Part shown: in pieces, positions 6,315 through 11,892 of the stretch | How the letters are laid out: each line of letters begins with the position of its first letter | Position numbering within the stretch: the stretch's first letter is position 1 | Origin: a virus | Length of the DNA stretch: 22,191 bases | Reading direction: 5' to 3' (one strand) | Virus record (IMG/VR): IMGVR_UViG_3300048924_000598 | Coordinates: 1 to 22,191 of that record | Translations under genes and position numbers: made by a program | The notes under the pieces: generated by a model | The model's database searches: none | The model's input: only the letters and a program-made list of their open reading frames with translations | Told to the model about the DNA's origin: nothing

Positions 6315-6324
6315 GACGTTGTCC

Positions 6325-6528
6325 TTAGTGGGTGGGTTTGGAGGCTAGTTCGCGTTTGTAGTCGGCAAGGCCGCGTAGGATCAGAAAGCGAAGAAACCAG
6401 GCACGGGAACGTTCGAGTTTCTTTGCGTAGTATTCGACTTCATCCACTTCGCTGGATGTTAGACGGACGCCGAGGGGGTTGGTAGTAATGCCCTTGGCAG
6501 TCCGCCTCGCTATGGATACGTTTTTCAT
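6325..6528 (-). CDS. First early gene, small DNA-binding-like protein, 67 aa
   Basis: First gene after the leftward early promoter. It starts MKNVSIARRTAKGITTNPLG and contains the segment GVRLTSSEVDEVEYYAKKLE followed by RSRAWFLRFLILRGL. This strand-helix-helix order resembles ribbon-helix-helix proteins. In P2 the first early gene is cox, which represses the repressor promoter and directs excision; by position this gene is a Cox counterpart, but the sequence does not prove it. No clear ribosome site is present in the 29-base leader, and a small inverted repeat (CATAA-TG-TTATG, 6526-6537) covers the start codon. Confidence 0.65.
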   Translation of the reverse strand: MKNVSIARRTAKGITTNPLGVRLTSSEVDEVEYYAKKLERSRAWFLRFLILRGLADYKRELASKPTH

Positions 6529-6563
6529 AATGTTATGATGTGTAATCGCTACAGGATGGCGTA

Positions 6564-6592
6564 ACTATAGTATGTTAAAACATACTTGTCAA
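6564..6592 (-). promoter_or_regulatory. Leftward early (lytic) promoter
   Basis: On the minus strand, TTGACA (6592-6587) and TATAGT (6569-6564) are separated by exactly 17 bases, a near-consensus sigma-70 promoter. Transcription should start around 6557 and enter the first early gene after a leader of about 29 bases. Confidence 0.85.
6569..6586. promoter_or_regulatory. Probable repressor operator (perfect 8+8 inverted repeat)
   Basis: AGTATGTT-AA-AACATACT is a perfect inverted repeat with a 2-bp centre. It lies almost entirely within the spacer of the leftward promoter, touching the last base of the -10 box, and ends 15 bases before the repressor ATG. A repressor dimer bound here would block the early promoter and could autoregulate its own gene. 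That the CI-like protein binds it is inference from position and symmetry. Confidence 0.75.
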
Positions 6593-6601
6593 TATAGATG
6601 T

Positions 6602-7045
6602 ATGGATAAAAATATTTTTGGTGATAGATTAAGGCAGGAGAGAACACGCCTGGGCCTTACACAAGAAGCGTTCGCGGCAATTGGTGGCGTGAAGAAACTC
6701 GCTCAGATTAACTATGAGCAAGGAAAGACCTTACCCGATGCAGGCTATATGGTTGCCTTGGCAGGTATAGGTGTTGACATCGCGTATGTAATGCTTGGAG
6801 TGCCAGCCAGCAACTCTTTAACTGATGATGAGAACGAGTTGTTGGTGGGTTATCGGCGCTTAGATTTGCGGGGGAAAGCCCGTGTACTTGGTGTTGTGGA
6901 AGGAATTTCTGACGCGCCAGCAAGCCCAGTTACCAAGTCTGGTGAACGGCACACGCAGGTCATCGTTCATGGTGAGATTGGTCAGCAGATTCATGGGAAC
7001 ATAACTGCTCCCCAGACAATCCACGTCGGCCGTAAAAAAAAGTGA
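6602..7045 (+). CDS. CI/C-like Xre-family immunity repressor
   Basis: Probable lysogeny repressor of 147 aa. Residues about 5-62 form a typical Xre helix-turn-helix domain (DRLRQERTRLGLTQEAFAAI, then a recognition region around KKLAQINYEQGKTLP). The C-terminal part is short and ends VIVHGEIGQQIHGNI followed by a KKK tail; there is no LexA-type Ser-Lys peptidase domain, so release from repression is probably not by RecA-stimulated self-cleavage. The frame is open from 6572, but that start lies inside the operator and the HTH begins right after the ATG at 6602, which I prefer. No clear ribosome site precedes it. It is divergent from the early operon. Confidence 0.88.
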   Translation: MDKNIFGDRLRQERTRLGLTQEAFAAIGGVKKLAQINYEQGKTLPDAGYMVALAGIGVDIAYVMLGVPASNSLTDDENELLVGYRRLDLRGKARVLGVVEGISDAPASPVTKSGERHTQVIVHGEIGQQIHGNITAPQTIHVGRKKK

Positions 7046-7055
7046 GCGGCGTGCT

Positions 7056-7325
7056 TTGCCGAGAGTCGGGAAGTTGTCACGACTAAGGTGCGCCATAAAA
7101 TGGAATTTTATTTCCCTTGTCGTGTACGCTTTTGCATGGTATTGGCCACTTTACATATGCGGCGCTAATGTCACTTCATTTGGTTGGGCACTCAGAAATA
7201 CATGCTTTTACGATGGCAAAGCATACACGACCGGCATTATCATCGAAACGACGCCAGGTATAAGGTGTAAGTGTTCTTCTGTTCGGGATACTACAGCCAA
7301 CTGGATTGAGTCGCAATTAAGTTAA
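7056..7325 (+). CDS. Possible small exported cysteine-containing protein (DUF1496-like), 89 aa
   Basis: Open frame ten bases after the repressor, beginning with TTG. A hydrophobic stretch (WNFISLVVYAFAWYWPLYIC) looks like a signal or membrane anchor. The C-terminal part contains NTCFYDGKAYTTGIIIE followed by RCKC. The pattern C-x-Y-x-G-K-x-Y-x-x-G-x-x-I-x(n)-C resembles DUF1496-type small secreted proteins, from memory. The start is uncertain: no ATG precedes the hydrophobic region in frame, and the best ribosome-like site (AAGG, 7085-7088) precedes an ATA codon. It could be a gene with a rare start, or the remains of one. Composition is lower in GC than the phage core, so it probably belongs to the cargo block. 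Confidence 0.4.
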   Translation: MPRVGKLSRLRCAIKWNFISLVVYAFAWYWPLYICGANVTSFGWALRNTCFYDGKAYTTGIIIETTPGIRCKCSSVRDTTANWIESQLS

Positions 7326-7394
7326 GGCGCGCTACGAATATATTATTTTTATTCCGGTAACTTTACGTCTTCTGCTGTAACGGATCTGAATTTT

Positions 7395-7419
7395 GAATAT
7401 TTATAAAAAATAAATATTC
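7395..7419. promoter_or_regulatory. AT-rich perfect inverted repeat upstream of the synthetase gene
   Basis: Ten-base arms (GAATATTTAT and ATAAATATTC) match perfectly around an AAAAA centre, 37 bases before the ATG at 7456. It has no GC stem and no following T-run, so it is not a convincing terminator. Position and symmetry suit an operator for the cargo genes; this is inference. Confidence 0.5.
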
Positions 7420-7439
7420 ACCTAATTAATGAGAATTGT

Positions 7440-7445
7440 AGGAGG
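7440..7445 (+). promoter_or_regulatory. Strong ribosome binding site fixing the synthetase start
   Basis: AGGAGG lies ten bases before the ATG at 7456. The longer open frame begins at 7429, upstream of this site, so 7456 is the likely true start. Confidence 0.8.
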
Positions 7446-7455
7446 AAGTTATTGT

Positions 7456-8427
7456 ATGAGTGGAACAACGTTGCGTTTGGAATATGACAAGAGACTTCCC
7501 ACATATATAAGAGCCTCCAAGAACATTCGGGATGCTATTGAATTATTGATCGAAGAAGCTGGAATTCCATTTCTTACGGTTTTATCTAGAGTGAAAACTT
7601 TTGAATCATTTCAAGAGAAGATTGAACGGAAGAATTATGATTCTCCTTTTAGTCAAGCAACAGATTTTGTAGGAATTAGAGTGGTTTTGTATTTTCCAAA
7701 AGATGTGGATGTGGTTAAGAATTTGCTATCCAAGGAATTTTATATACTGGAAAGTTCTGATAAGTCCGACTTGCTTAAAGCTAATGAGTTTGGCTATAGA
7801 TCACATCATCTTTTGCTTAGGACTCCAAAGTCTTGGGCTAAAACGCCAAATTATCGAGGATTGAACGATGTCACTGTTGAAGTCCAACTGCGTACTGTTT
7901 TTATGCATGCATGGGCTGAAATTGAACATAAACTTCAGTATAAGTCGAATGTTCAAGTTCCTCGTGATCTCCAGCGAAAACTTTTTCTACTCTCGGCAAA
8001 GGTAGAGGAGGCGGATGATCAATTTCAGAGTTTAGTAGCCGACGTAAACACATACCGCCATGAAATCGCATTGAAAGCTTCTAAGGAGGGAAAGTTTGAT
8101 TCAACATTAGAGTTAAATTTAGATACTTTGAAGGAGTTGCTTGCTTTCTTTTATCCGGAAAATTCCACTCATGACGTAATGACTCAAAATCTATTTGACG
8201 TTATAGTTAAGAAAAATATCACACTGCCGGAGTTGATAAATTATGCCACTCAATTTAGACCCTATAGGGAGACCTTGGGGGAATTTGTTTCTGGTTTATC
8301 ATCTGCAGCAGAATTTAGTTATGCTCTCGATATCTTTGCGCCAAACTATTCAACTGCAAAGGATTATACTGATGGCCGTAATGAAATAATAAAAAAACTT
8401 CGTGATATAGTAATGTCGCAGAAATAG
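7456..8427 (+). CDS. RelA/SpoT-type (p)ppGpp synthetase-domain protein, no hydrolase domain
   Basis: Probable nucleotide pyrophosphotransferase of the small alarmone synthetase type. The 323-aa protein has the RelA_SpoT synthetase domain at about residues 35-160. The conserved motifs look intact: Arg45, Lys47, Ser51, Lys55 and Arg58-Lys59 (SRVKTFESFQEKIERK), Asp70 (ATDFVGIR), Gly113-Tyr114-Arg115-Ser116-His117 (GYRSHH), Glu142-x-Gln144 (EVQLRT) and His158 (AWAEIEH). There is no HD hydrolase domain before it and no TGS/ACT domains after it. Residues about 165-323 are mostly helical and unassigned. Phage-borne relatives include toxic synthetases and the CapRel-type fused toxin-antitoxin that senses phage capsid; I cannot tell which, if either, this is. 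The low GC marks it as acquired cargo. The 265-aa gene follows after 42 bases on the same strand and is probably co-transcribed. Confidence 0.88.
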   Translation: MSGTTLRLEYDKRLPTYIRASKNIRDAIELLIEEAGIPFLTVLSRVKTFESFQEKIERKNYDSPFSQATDFVGIRVVLYFPKDVDVVKNLLSKEFYILESSDKSDLLKANEFGYRSHHLLLRTPKSWAKTPNYRGLNDVTVEVQLRTVFMHAWAEIEHKLQYKSNVQVPRDLQRKLFLLSAKVEEADDQFQSLVADVNTYRHEIALKASKEGKFDSTLELNLDTLKELLAFFYPENSTHDVMTQNLFDVIVKKNITLPELINYATQFRPYRETLGEFVSGLSSAAEFSYALDIFAPNYSTAKDYTDGRNEIIKKLRDIVMSQK

Positions 8428-8469
8428 GTAATTGTTGCCACTAGCAGTACTTGATAACAGGTAATAATT

Positions 8470-9267
8470 GTGAATTCATTTGAGCTGTTTCTAGCGAGGA
8501 AATTCTTTGCGAAAGCCCTGCATTGTCCTTGCCCGCAATTAATTACTCGATCTAGCCCTGGCGGAGCGCAGGTTAAGTGCTTTATCATTTATATCGACAA
8601 GATAGAGAAGCCGTATCTGCTCGTGCGAAGTTTGTCTGGCGACAACCTAGAATGCCATGAATGGTCTGGACAATCTTTCGATAAACCGGTTACTGTTCCG
8701 CTCAGTTCCGTCGACGCGAAGGATGTTTCGATCACACATTTCTATGGATACAGCGAAGTGCAGTATAGAGGCATACTTGACTTTTCCATCGGACGGACAC
8801 TATTTTTACCTTATCTCAAGATTCACTTCATACGTACCATTAACGCCGTCGATCAATACTTTTTCAATAAAAAGAAACTCTTTACGCGGCAGAGAATTGA
8901 ACTTTTAAAATTTTTAGTTGAGCGTCGACTCGAAGGTGCTCCGATCTCCGGTGGCATTGATTTGATGACCGGCCTATACTCTCTCAAGTGGGTACTTCAT
9001 CCGGATAAGGATTCGCAGCTACGGCGAGTTAACTTTTACCTCGATTCACTTGTCGATACAGGTGAACTGCGGCGTGAAAACTACAAGTACGAACTTACTG
9101 GGGAAGCCCTTAAGGCGATTGAAATCTATGAAGAGCAGGAGAGGAAGCATACAGAGAATGTAAAAATTCAGCGACGAATGCTTTTGTTGACCTTCGCAAT
9201 CGTTTTACTTACCGGAGCACAAGCTGGCTTGTATAAGCTGCCAATGCTTTTAGATTTGAGTAAATAG
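8470..9267 (+). CDS. Unknown protein with winged-helix-like region and C-terminal membrane anchor, 265 aa
   Basis: Starts with GTG (MNSFELFLARKFFAK), with an AGG eight bases upstream. I do not recognise the family. Residues about 36-115 look like a beta-rich domain (CFIIYIDKIEKPYLLVRSLS). Residues about 138-215 look like a winged helix: QRIELLKFLVERR, then a helix in QLRRVNFYLDSLVDTGELRR, then a wing ending YKYELTGEAL. A charged linker (YEEQERKHTENVKIQRR) leads to one hydrophobic segment at about 237-257 (MLLLTFAIVLLTG). It would therefore be tail-anchored with the bulk in the cytoplasm. GC content is visibly higher than in the synthetase gene before it, so the two may not share an origin, but order and spacing suggest co-expression. 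Confidence 0.75.
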   Translation: MNSFELFLARKFFAKALHCPCPQLITRSSPGGAQVKCFIIYIDKIEKPYLLVRSLSGDNLECHEWSGQSFDKPVTVPLSSVDAKDVSITHFYGYSEVQYRGILDFSIGRTLFLPYLKIHFIRTINAVDQYFFNKKKLFTRQRIELLKFLVERRLEGAPISGGIDLMTGLYSLKWVLHPDKDSQLRRVNFYLDSLVDTGELRRENYKYELTGEALKAIEIYEEQERKHTENVKIQRRMLLLTFAIVLLTGAQAGLYKLPMLLDLSK

Positions 9268-9533
9268 ACGTTAGGGCAGAACACGACGTCGATCTTATTA
9301 TAAACACCAAGATGGCGTTAATGGACCAGCTTTAAATTTTAATTTTACTATACAAAATGCTTTATGTTTGATTGATAAATAAATGCCGCGACGAATATGG
9401 AAATCTCATTTATTGCCGATGATAGGAAAAATCTTCTTGGTTTAGTGGATTATATATAAAAAATAATTAGTTGTCGAAAAAATTAAAATAGCAAGTGCGT
9501 CCGATTTAATGAAATAATCAATGTGGAGAAACA
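9268..9533. other. AT-rich intergenic region inside the cargo block
   Basis: 266 bases with no convincing coding frame. It must hold the promoter of the 9534 operon, but no -35/-10 pair is clear enough to call among the many AT-rich hexamers. No inverted repeat of the kind at 7395 was found. Confidence 0.6.
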
Positions 9534-10031
9534 ATGTCTATTAACGATATACAAAATCCTATTTTGTATTCAACCATGACTGCATTAGCGTACAATATTA
9601 ATAAAAAATACTACAAAGACAAGCATTACATGTGGTGCACGCCTTATTTCGGGTCAGACTTTCAGTCACCGCACTTTACTGTTCCTCCAAGCTCTTCTCC
9701 GCTTGAAATCTACAATATGTTGCAAAAGGAAATTTCCGGGGCAGATTTGCACAACACAAAAATAAAACTAAATCGTCGTGGCATTAGAAATGGTGCAGGA
9801 ATTATGTTGAGATTGGGGAAAATAACACAGGAGACTCATGATGAAATTGTCACCATTTCTAAACGAGCGACAGATCAACAATTTAAGCCATTGTTTTGTG
9901 TTATATCGCGTTTGGAGGCCGTGCCATTTTATAAGAAAGTTGACGTTAAAGATCGTGCGAATCCAATGTCATATGAGTATATATTATCCGATTTACCTCA
10001 ATCAGCATTCGATATAATAAGGATTGGTTAA
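9534..10031 (+). CDS. Unknown cargo protein, first of a two-gene operon, 165 aa
   Basis: Starts MSINDIQNPILYSTMTALAY, with GGAG five bases before the ATG. The protein is slightly basic (about 21 Lys/Arg against 16 Asp/Glu). Notable segments are YSTMTALAYNINKKYYKD, YMWCTPYFGS, a run of prolines and serines (VPPSSSP), LNRRGIRNGAG and PLFCVISRLEAVPF. I have an impression of having seen this architecture as an uncharacterised family in other bacteria, but cannot name it or give a function. It has no membrane segment. The stop is followed after one base by the next ATG, whose ribosome site (AAGGA) lies in the last codons of this gene, so the two proteins are probably made together. AT-rich and unlike the phage core. 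Confidence 0.78.
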   Translation: MSINDIQNPILYSTMTALAYNINKKYYKDKHYMWCTPYFGSDFQSPHFTVPPSSSPLEIYNMLQKEISGADLHNTKIKLNRRGIRNGAGIMLRLGKITQETHDEIVTISKRATDQQFKPLFCVISRLEAVPFYKKVDVKDRANPMSYEYILSDLPQSAFDIIRIG

Positions 10032-10032
10032 A

Positions 10033-10401
10033 ATGAATGAACTTAGGTCTGTAATTTCAGGATATTCTTTATCAGAGGCTCGATCAGCATTTTATTATTT
10101 AAGTCGTTATTTAAAGCAGGCGGCAAACGATGAATATGAGAAAGATATTTTTGATGATTACTCAGAATTGGAACTTGGTGAGGGTGCAAGAGTACTAACT
10201 GAAAAGATGATATCTTTTATTGAAAAAAAGCAAGGAAAATTTGCTAAAAATTTCACTGACGAAGAGTATTTCGAATGGATGAATGAAATAGATTTAATTG
10301 AAGCCGAACTTGATCCATTGCCTTCAGCCGATCAGATTGATCAAGCCGAGAAAGTCATAAAAGAATTGGTAATTCCAACCTTAGGGGTAAATAAAAAGTA
10401 G
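10033..10401 (+). CDS. Unknown acidic cargo protein, second of a two-gene operon, 122 aa
   Basis: The start at 10033 (MNELRSVISGYSLSEARSAF) is preferred over an upstream TTG because AAGGA lies about nine bases before it. The protein is acidic (about 26 Asp/Glu against 15 Lys/Arg) and all-helical in appearance, with an acidic patch in residues 33-50 (DEYEKDIFDDYSELELGEG). It has no recognised domain. A basic protein followed directly by a small acidic partner is a common arrangement for toxin-antitoxin or immunity pairs, but here the acidic protein comes second and nothing else in the sequence proves toxicity. Confidence 0.75.
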   Translation: MNELRSVISGYSLSEARSAFYYLSRYLKQAANDEYEKDIFDDYSELELGEGARVLTEKMISFIEKKQGKFAKNFTDEEYFEWMNEIDLIEAELDPLPSADQIDQAEKVIKELVIPTLGVNKK

Positions 10402-10647
10402 AAGCGTATATTTTTTTACAGGTTCTGGAAGAACTGATTTTACCAAGCTGTATGTACAAATGGGATGTTCATTTTTTTTCAAAATCTTAAATCAATGATT
10501 ATAGAATATTTGAATGGATAATTAATTCTGAAATTTGGAAAGCTGCTTCAGTGCAGCGATAAGGGAAAATTCCGTCTACTGGGCGAAATCGGCTGCCGAG
10601 CTTACACAAATGATGCCTTTCCCTGTTGCTTCTGCGTTGGTTACTGC
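10402..10647. other. Intergenic region between cargo and gene D, convergent ends
   Basis: The cargo operon (+) and the late operon (-) converge here. No gene is seen. Two weak hairpins could end late transcription on the minus strand: GCTGC-ACTGAA-GCAGC followed by TTT (near 10542-10557), and TCGG-CAG-CCGA followed by TTT (near 10590-10600). Both stems are short, so neither is called a terminator. Confidence 0.5.
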
Positions 10648-11892
10648 TTACGTATACCCGATAGGTTCCTCCCTGTTTTCACGAATGATTGCTCGCACTT
10701 CCTCAATGTGCCGCCACGCATGCAGCGCCGCCCGCTTGGCGGCCTGCTTGCTCTGGTAAGCATGTTCCAGTATCTTAAGCGTGCCAGTAGCGCCAGCCTG
10801 CTCCTGGCCTGTTTTTTTCTTCTTCGCCGCCACGTCCTTCCACTTGGCCACCACGCCCGTGATGCCTTCGTCCGGGTCTTTCTCTTCCTCGCGCTCGGCC
10901 TCGACCGCTTCCGTCTTGGTTTCAAATTCCACCCGCGTGGTAAAGCCGTTGCCGCCCAGGTTGTGCGTGACCTTGACCGATAGCCAGTCGGTGGCGTCGA
11001 TCTCGGGCTTGAATCCTTGCACGGTTACGGGCGATTGCGGGAACACCGCCGGGTTGCCCAGGGCCAGGCTCATTTCAAAGGTGGCCAGGCCGCGCAGGAT
11101 GCGCTGCCATTCGGCCACGGCCGCCGCGCGCGCGTCGGTTTCGTTGGCGAAGGTTGTGCGCAGGCGCTTGCTGTTGCCGGGCACGCCGGCTACGACGCTG
11201 CGGCGGCGCGCGTAGCGTTCGTCGTACCAGAAGGCGCGCACGCCTGTGTAGGCATCGCTTTCGGCGCTGTGGTAGCGGTGGCCGTCGCCCAGGGCGCGCG
11301 TGATGGGGATGACGGGCAGCGCCTTTCCGCTGGCCGTGCGGCTCTGGTTGATGGGGATGAAGAGCAAGGTGTCATTCTTGACGGTGGCCACCGCGTCGTA
11401 TTTCCTGCCCAGCCGGCGCAGGAAGGCCGCATCGCTTTCGTGGGTCTGGTCAATGTGTTCGATGGCGGTATCGCGCAGGCGCGCCGACACGCCCGACGCC
11501 AGCTCGTTGCGAAAGGCGATGGCCTCGATGATGGCGCCCAGGGTGGTCTTGTGAAAGCTGTGTTCCTGCTGCTGTTTGAAGGTGTCGATCAGGTTGGCCG
11601 ACCTGGCGCGCAGGGTGATGGTGTCGGGCGCGCCGCTGTGCTCCACCTCGTCGACGGTGAATTTGCCCATGTCCACCAGGCCGGATGATTGCCAGCCCAG
11701 CGCCAGGGCGATCTGCGCGCCGCGCGGCGGCATGGCCAGCTTGCCGTCGCTGTCATCCAGGGAGATATCGAGCTGGTCGCTCTCGTCGCCACGGCACAGG
11801 GTCAAGGTCAGATTGATCAGCCGCGGCGAAACGATGGCCGTCAAATCCTTGTCCTCGATGCTGACCTTGAATGCGGGGATATTGGTACTCAT
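10648..11892 (-). CDS. D: Tail protein gpD (baseplate hub, late control D family)
   Basis: P2 gpD-family baseplate hub protein joining tail tube, tape measure end and spike. The start at 11892 (MSTNIPAFKVSIEDKDLTAI) overlaps the gpU stop as ATGA and is typical of the family; the frame stays open far upstream but that part is only a shadow of gpU. Family segments include GDESDQLDISLDD at residues 34-46 and DQTHESDAAFLRRLGRKYDA near residue 150. The 414-aa length is slightly more than P2 gpD (about 390), the excess being a Lys/Glu-rich C-terminus (WKDVAAKKKKTGQEQAG and following helix). It is the last gene of the late operon, as in P2, but is followed here by cargo instead of ogr. Confidence 0.93.
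   Translation of the reverse strand: MSTNIPAFKVSIEDKDLTAIVSPRLINLTLTLCRGDESDQLDISLDDSDGKLAMPPRGAQIALALGWQSSGLVDMGKFTVDEVEHSGAPDTITLRARSANLIDTFKQQQEHSFHKTTLGAIIEAIAFRNELASGVSARLRDTAIEHIDQTHESDAAFLRRLGRKYDAVATVKNDTLLFIPINQSRTASGKALPVIPITRALGDGHRYHSAESDAYTGVRAFWYDERYARRRSVVAGVPGNSKRLRTTFANETDARAAAVAEWQRILRGLATFEMSLALGNPAVFPQSPVTVQGFKPEIDATDWLSVKVTHNLGGNGFTTRVEFETKTEAVEAEREEEKDPDEGITGVVAKWKDVAAKKKKTGQEQAGATGTLKILEHAYQSKQAAKRAALHAWRHIEEVRAIIRENREEPIGYT

Follow-up and report, generated by a model that had tools for sequence, protein, structure and literature searches.

A predicted single-gene small alarmone synthetase as putative defence cargo of a P2-like phage

The window analysed here (22,191 nucleotides, positions 1 to 22,191 of the IMG/VR record IMGVR_UViG_3300048924_000598) derives from a P2-like phage, in which gpA, gpD, tail genes and an integrase were recognised (partial phage). 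Next to the repressor, it carries a gene for a RelA/SpoT synthetase-domain protein, SYN. In the reading that we favour, with a probability of about 0.5, SYN, a small alarmone synthetase encoded by a single gene, would act on its own as a superinfection defence controlled by its C-terminus and belongs to the exchangeable cargo of P2-like prophages, while the downstream gene, PART, is unrelated to it.

Cargo region of the phage

6316-10662, no strand: variable region of the phage lineage, containing the repressor (blastn alignment with the viral contig L151 breaks at 6315 and resumes at 10663)
6572-7045, + strand: HTH repressor, on the same strand as SYN and PART, 42% identical to the repressor of the sister phage
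7441-7447, + strand: SYN ribosome-binding site AGGAGGA, 8 bases upstream of ATG 7456, from direct reading of the sequence
7456-8427, + strand: SYN, 323 aa, RelA/SpoT synthetase-domain protein with a core at about residues 1-205 and a helical C-terminal region at about residues 206-323
8470-9267, + strand: PART, 265 aa, GTG start, N-terminal beta region, winged helix and C-terminal membrane segment; probably an independent cargo gene
9534-10031, + strand: ORF165, another AT-rich cargo gene of this variable region
10024-10401, + strand: ORF125, AT-rich cargo with an 8-base overlap with ORF165

The AT-rich cargo filled the interval from the repressor to gpD, which ends at position 10648. The GC content was 37% in SYN, 44% in PART, 37% in ORF165 and 33% in ORF125, compared to 59% in the window and 64-65% in gpD and gpA, in agreement with the initial annotation, which had described SYN and PART as AT-rich cargo adjoining the repressor. 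The SYN start was assigned to ATG 7456, downstream of the AGGAGGA motif, as the other in-frame ATG (7429) precedes the ribosome site. The GTG start of PART, 42 bases past SYN, agreed with that of a 70%-identical homologue on another viral contig (L016). Promoter and terminator scans returned fewer sites than shuffled sequence did and were not informative. Between the repressor and SYN, a TTG-start frame of 89 aa (7056-7325) was weakly similar to phrog_6521 (E=4e-6), a family of phage membrane proteins, and is possibly a remnant gene. ORF165 and ORF125, neither of which matched a known family, have counterparts that also overlap on a plasmid of Sinorhizobium chiapasense (64% and 32% identity, respectively). 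In contrast to SYN and PART, this pair is thus kept elsewhere, and it may form a two-gene toxin-antitoxin or defence unit.

A sister phage was found on the viral contig L117/L151, with 87-91% DNA identity to the window over the aligned backbone (blastn) and protein identities of 95% for gpI, 93% for gpJ and 97% for gpA. Its repressor-gpD slot (L151:7975-10262) held another repressor (42% identical) and, in place of SYN and PART, genes for a membrane protein and for a protein of 260 aa with a putAbiC domain (E=3.5e-10). The presence of a putAbiC gene in one phage and of SYN in the other indicates that this slot swaps defence-type cargo, and the difference in cargo at 6316-10662 marks SYN as exchangeable, its slot being variable in a phage that is otherwise conserved. 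Between gpS and gpV, the sister phage also possessed a solitary SYN-family gene for a protein of 350 aa that belongs to a different branch of the tree, and no PART homologue was found in this phage. Two near relatives thus acquired different family members at different places.

Catalytic core and relation to known synthetases

SYN matched the Pfam RelA_SpoT domain over residues 44-165 (E=4.7e-23; 82 bits compared to a cut-off of 27). All active-site motifs were intact: R45-x-K47...S51...EK55..RK59, D70..G73.R75, GYRSxH (113-118), ExQxRT (142-147) and HAWA...YK (151-163). No HD hydrolase domain was detected in Pfam or NCBIfam, and the modelled structure, built with 74 relatives (mean pLDDT 93.2), left no length for such a domain. 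The intact synthetase domain without HD hydrolase reported by the initial annotation was therefore confirmed, and SYN combines the two features of a small alarmone synthetase (SAS), a RelA_SpoT domain with catalytic motifs and the absence of HD. It also matched phrog_9640, a family without known function, over residues 4-229 (E=3.2e-45), the last 94 residues lying outside the match.

The nearest cores, by both profile and fold, were those of RelQ and RelP (YjbM/YwaC, SAS1/SAS2), which share all the catalytic motifs with SYN. The SYN core fold (residues 2-204) gave Z-scores of 19-20 to RelQ/RelP; in the structure list, CapRel followed with 13-14 and FaRel2 with about 7.7. The sequence profile gave the same ordering, with E-values of ~1e-30 to 1e-32 for RelQ/RelP-type chains (~1e-25 for the weakest of them) and 1.7e-12 for CapRel. 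RelQ and RelP differ from SYN in being shorter (~210-250 aa), in lacking its extra C-terminus and in forming their own group in the tree (support 100/98), so that SYN has neither the short length nor the tree position of the housekeeping enzymes. Its score against the NCBIfam YjbM equivalog was 79, for a cut-off of 320. The expectation that the C-terminus would set SYN apart from a housekeeping synthetase thus held, since RelP/RelQ-type enzymes are without this region and the tree places them outside the family.

CapRel, which senses phage proteins and then abolishes phage growth (PMC9712102), resembles SYN as a prophage-borne, single-gene synthetase with a C-terminal extension. SYN possessed the toxSYNTH core of CapRel (profile match of the cores, E=8.9e-12), as any SAS would, and the profile alignment of the two proteins covered the core only, ending at residue 207. 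The C-terminus of CapRel is a beta-rich pseudo-zinc finger with a YXXY motif, whereas that of SYN is helical, and YXXY was sought in SYN and found absent. Based on sequence and model, SYN is not a CapRel, because the CapRel-type C-terminal domain is missing. The PADLOC model PDC-S33 was considered as the catalogued home of the SYN family, as 74 of 74 relatives matched it, but was dropped once CapRel SJ46 proved to match the model over its full length (E=7e-87), compared to residues 40-154 alone for SYN (E=2.4e-16). PDC-S33 is therefore a CapRel-type model, which SYN matches by its core alone. A literature search under the name PDC-S33 returned no description.

PART and its association with SYN

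The initial annotation had described, 42 bases downstream of the synthetase, a gene for a protein with a winged-helix-like region and one C-terminal membrane segment, and both features were recovered. The PART model was of moderate quality (pLDDT 73.6, 8 sequences), its winged helix giving a best structure comparison of Z 9.4 (rmsd 1.7 across 63 residues) and its beta region receiving no assignment. A single strongly hydrophobic segment of 17 residues began at residue 238 (mean 2.0, compared to 1.05 for the next best), and 13 of 13 aligned members shared such a segment at the C-terminus. PART matched phrog_7611, whose function is not known (E=3e-14); profile comparison with solved structures gave chance-level matches only, the Pfam search returned nothing shared, and no match below E=0.001 was obtained in the viral structure library.

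Homologues of PART were found in 21 plasmid records, four Vibrio filamentous phage records and one other viral contig (L016), where the 70%-identical homologue stood alone among tail genes. The DNA similarity between L016 and the window extended from the start codon of PART to near its stop. On a Burkholderiales chromosome (L122), a PART homologue adjoined an OLD-like ATPase gene. No PART homologue was found in 297 Hyphomicrobiales genomes, a result that carries little weight without a positive control in that order.

The recurrence of the pair in homologous loci, on which the initial annotation had made its two-gene proposal depend, was surveyed in both directions, with results against the pair. 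No PART homologue was present at the 103 other synthetase loci, and no synthetase at the 13 other PART loci fetched; nor was a family synthetase found anywhere on the L016 contig or in ten complete PART-carrying records of plasmids or phages. Among 399 Burkholderiales genomes, PART-like genes occurred in 4 and synthetases (E<1e-20) in 15, and no genome had both; with genes this infrequent, chance alone would predict no overlap, and the result indicates no linkage rather than avoidance. A conserved two-gene system was rejected accordingly, co-occurrence being absent whichever gene the search started from, and the conserved adjacent antitoxin gene of two-gene toxSAS is lacking. PART is most likely a separate, independently moving gene and not the partner of SYN, judging from these distributions. 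As a guess only, it may be a stand-alone exclusion or regulatory gene.

The two-gene systems FaRel2-ATfaRel2 and Phrann gp29-gp30 share the synthetase domain with SYN, but require a dedicated neighbour, whereas relatives of SYN occur alone and PART is not found with them. Since the prophage-encoded synthetase pair Phrann gp29/gp30 blocks other phages (PMC9262239), the general idea of a pair has a precedent, although the SYN locus gives it no support.

Distribution of the synthetase family

Searches for the synthetase family recovered about 104 loci, from phages and from many bacterial phyla. In the tree, five Bacillota RelP/RelQ-type SAS sequences fell outside the family (support 100/98), and SYN was placed in a poorly resolved part amid Bacteroidota, Bacillota and phage sequences. 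The nearest relatives found were only ~38% identical across the whole protein. Taken together, the distribution has the pattern of a family scattered by horizontal transfer.

P2-like prophages have two defence-enriched positions, one between the replication endonuclease and portal genes (tin, old) and one at the fun position (Vassallo et al., PMC9519451). Relatives of SYN were located at both. At the first, two loci (L109 and L111) showed gpA, the synthetase, then portal and terminase genes on the opposite strand (identified by reading the proteins). At the second, in one locus (L015), the synthetase was flanked on one side by the gene of a NO VEIN C-terminal domain protein, which followed tail fibre genes, and on the other by the FI sheath gene. 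A TIR-TM type gene lay upstream of another relative (L102). Besides the copy in the sister phage, a solo family member followed the G1P/Zot gene of a Vibrio filamentous phage. The 3.5-kb ColRNAI plasmid pZZW20-3.5K of Klebsiella (L152), with four listed genes, carried as its main cargo a 378-aa family synthetase and a small HTH gene. In two different Vibrio filamentous phages (L007 and L008), a PART homologue and a SYN homologue, respectively, occupied the equivalent site just past the G1P/Zot-type gene, and by position appear to be alternative cargo for one slot.

Some relatives in Lachnospiraceae and Bacteroidales had conserved chromosomal neighbours, so part of the family lies outside phage defence, and some members carried a plain (p)ppGpp synthetase annotation. 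At L054, L061, L080, L094 and other Bacteroidales loci, the synthetases adjoined genes of recurring clusters (including, by reading, an anti-sigma-type kinase, an antagonist, and HD or phosphotransferase-type proteins), possibly a chromosomal signalling operon.

With relatives in hotspots and solo copies, SYN looks like accessory defence-type cargo; of the candidate prophage defence system first proposed, this part stands, while a system formed with PART does not.

C-terminal region of SYN

In the model, a long helix (170-211) was followed by five further helices spanning residues 222-322, without strands past residue 147. The C-terminus had been described as helical and about 155 residues long; its helical nature was borne out, but part of that length is the long helix also present in RelQ/RelP, and the predicted extra part is ~110-118 residues. 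This C-terminus had no Pfam assignment and no match among solved structures in a sequence search.

The tail past the core measured 91-167 residues across the family. Family pairs with 54% core identity had a mean of 22% identity in the tail, and those with 63% core identity a mean of 32%, although tail alignment is poor at such distance. Fast change of this kind would be expected of a sensor, and equally of any domain under loose constraint; a structural or oligomerising role of the C-terminus is also conceivable. Because the C-terminus is fast-changing, relatives sit in P2 defence hotspots and copies are solo, SYN is most plausibly controlled by a regulator built into its C-terminus. This option had been put forward initially together with PART as antitoxin or effector, and only the former is retained.

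Proposed function and alternatives

Under the favoured reading, SYN would be produced in the lysogen yet kept inactive by its own C-terminus, until a superinfecting phage, through a protein or an infection-induced change, lifts the inhibition. SYN would then transfer pyrophosphate from ATP to an acceptor, leading growth and phage production to halt. GDP/GTP, giving (p)ppGpp, is judged a likelier acceptor than tRNA, because the sequence and fold of SYN are closest to RelQ/RelP.

The choice of acceptor bears on an alternative that we consider unlikely, in which SYN is a fused toxin-antitoxin-like tRNA pyrophosphokinase following the CapRel logic, with another C-terminal sensor and the tRNA CCA as target. 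Consistent with this, SYN, like CapRel, is one prophage-encoded polypeptide whose C-terminus varies, and its core is matched by the PADLOC CapRel-type model; however, that core is nearer to the cores of (p)ppGpp-producing enzymes than to those of CapRel or FaRel2, both YXXY and the beta-rich C-terminal domain are lacking, and the profile comparison with CapRel aligns the core alone. The same RelQ/RelP-like core would also suit a role outside defence, in which (p)ppGpp made constitutively or on starvation tunes the growth state of the host for lysogeny or induction. The conserved chromosomal positions and plain (p)ppGpp synthetase annotations of certain family members point in this direction, but the scatter of the family over phyla, the repeated use of phage defence slots by its members and the putAbiC gene in the slot of SYN in the sister phage make it similarly doubtful.

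Least probable of all is a lineage-specific system, in which membrane-anchored PART keeps SYN inactive or serves as its effector. SYN and PART do share a strand, a 42-base gap and AT-richness, and since the nearest SYN relatives are only distantly related, a young partnership would be invisible in them. Against this, the close PART homologue of L016 stands without a synthetase, the two genes were never together in any of the loci, whole records and Burkholderiales genomes surveyed, and their GC/GC3 contents are unlike (37/32% for SYN and 44/46% for PART), which fits separate acquisition. The self-contained synthetase with PART as an unrelated neighbour therefore remains the preferred reading.

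Significance

The finding that the membrane neighbour is most likely not a partner spares effort on the wrong pair. The SYN family is common and widespread, without a function described here, and the defence database searched has no model of its own for it, only a CapRel-type model matching at the core. More speculatively, it may be a large family, so far uncatalogued, of phage sensors that consist of one protein and combine a RelQ-like (p)ppGpp core with a rapidly diversifying helical C-terminus that recognises phage products, in P2-like, filamentous and other phages and in small plasmids, with (p)ppGpp, and not tRNA modification or (p)ppApp, as the abortive-infection signal. CapRel provides the precedent for one synthetase-type protein being both phage sensor and effector. 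If this is true, the SYN family would be a second solution to the problem solved by CapRel, based on another sensor and on a core of (p)ppGpp type, and common on phages.
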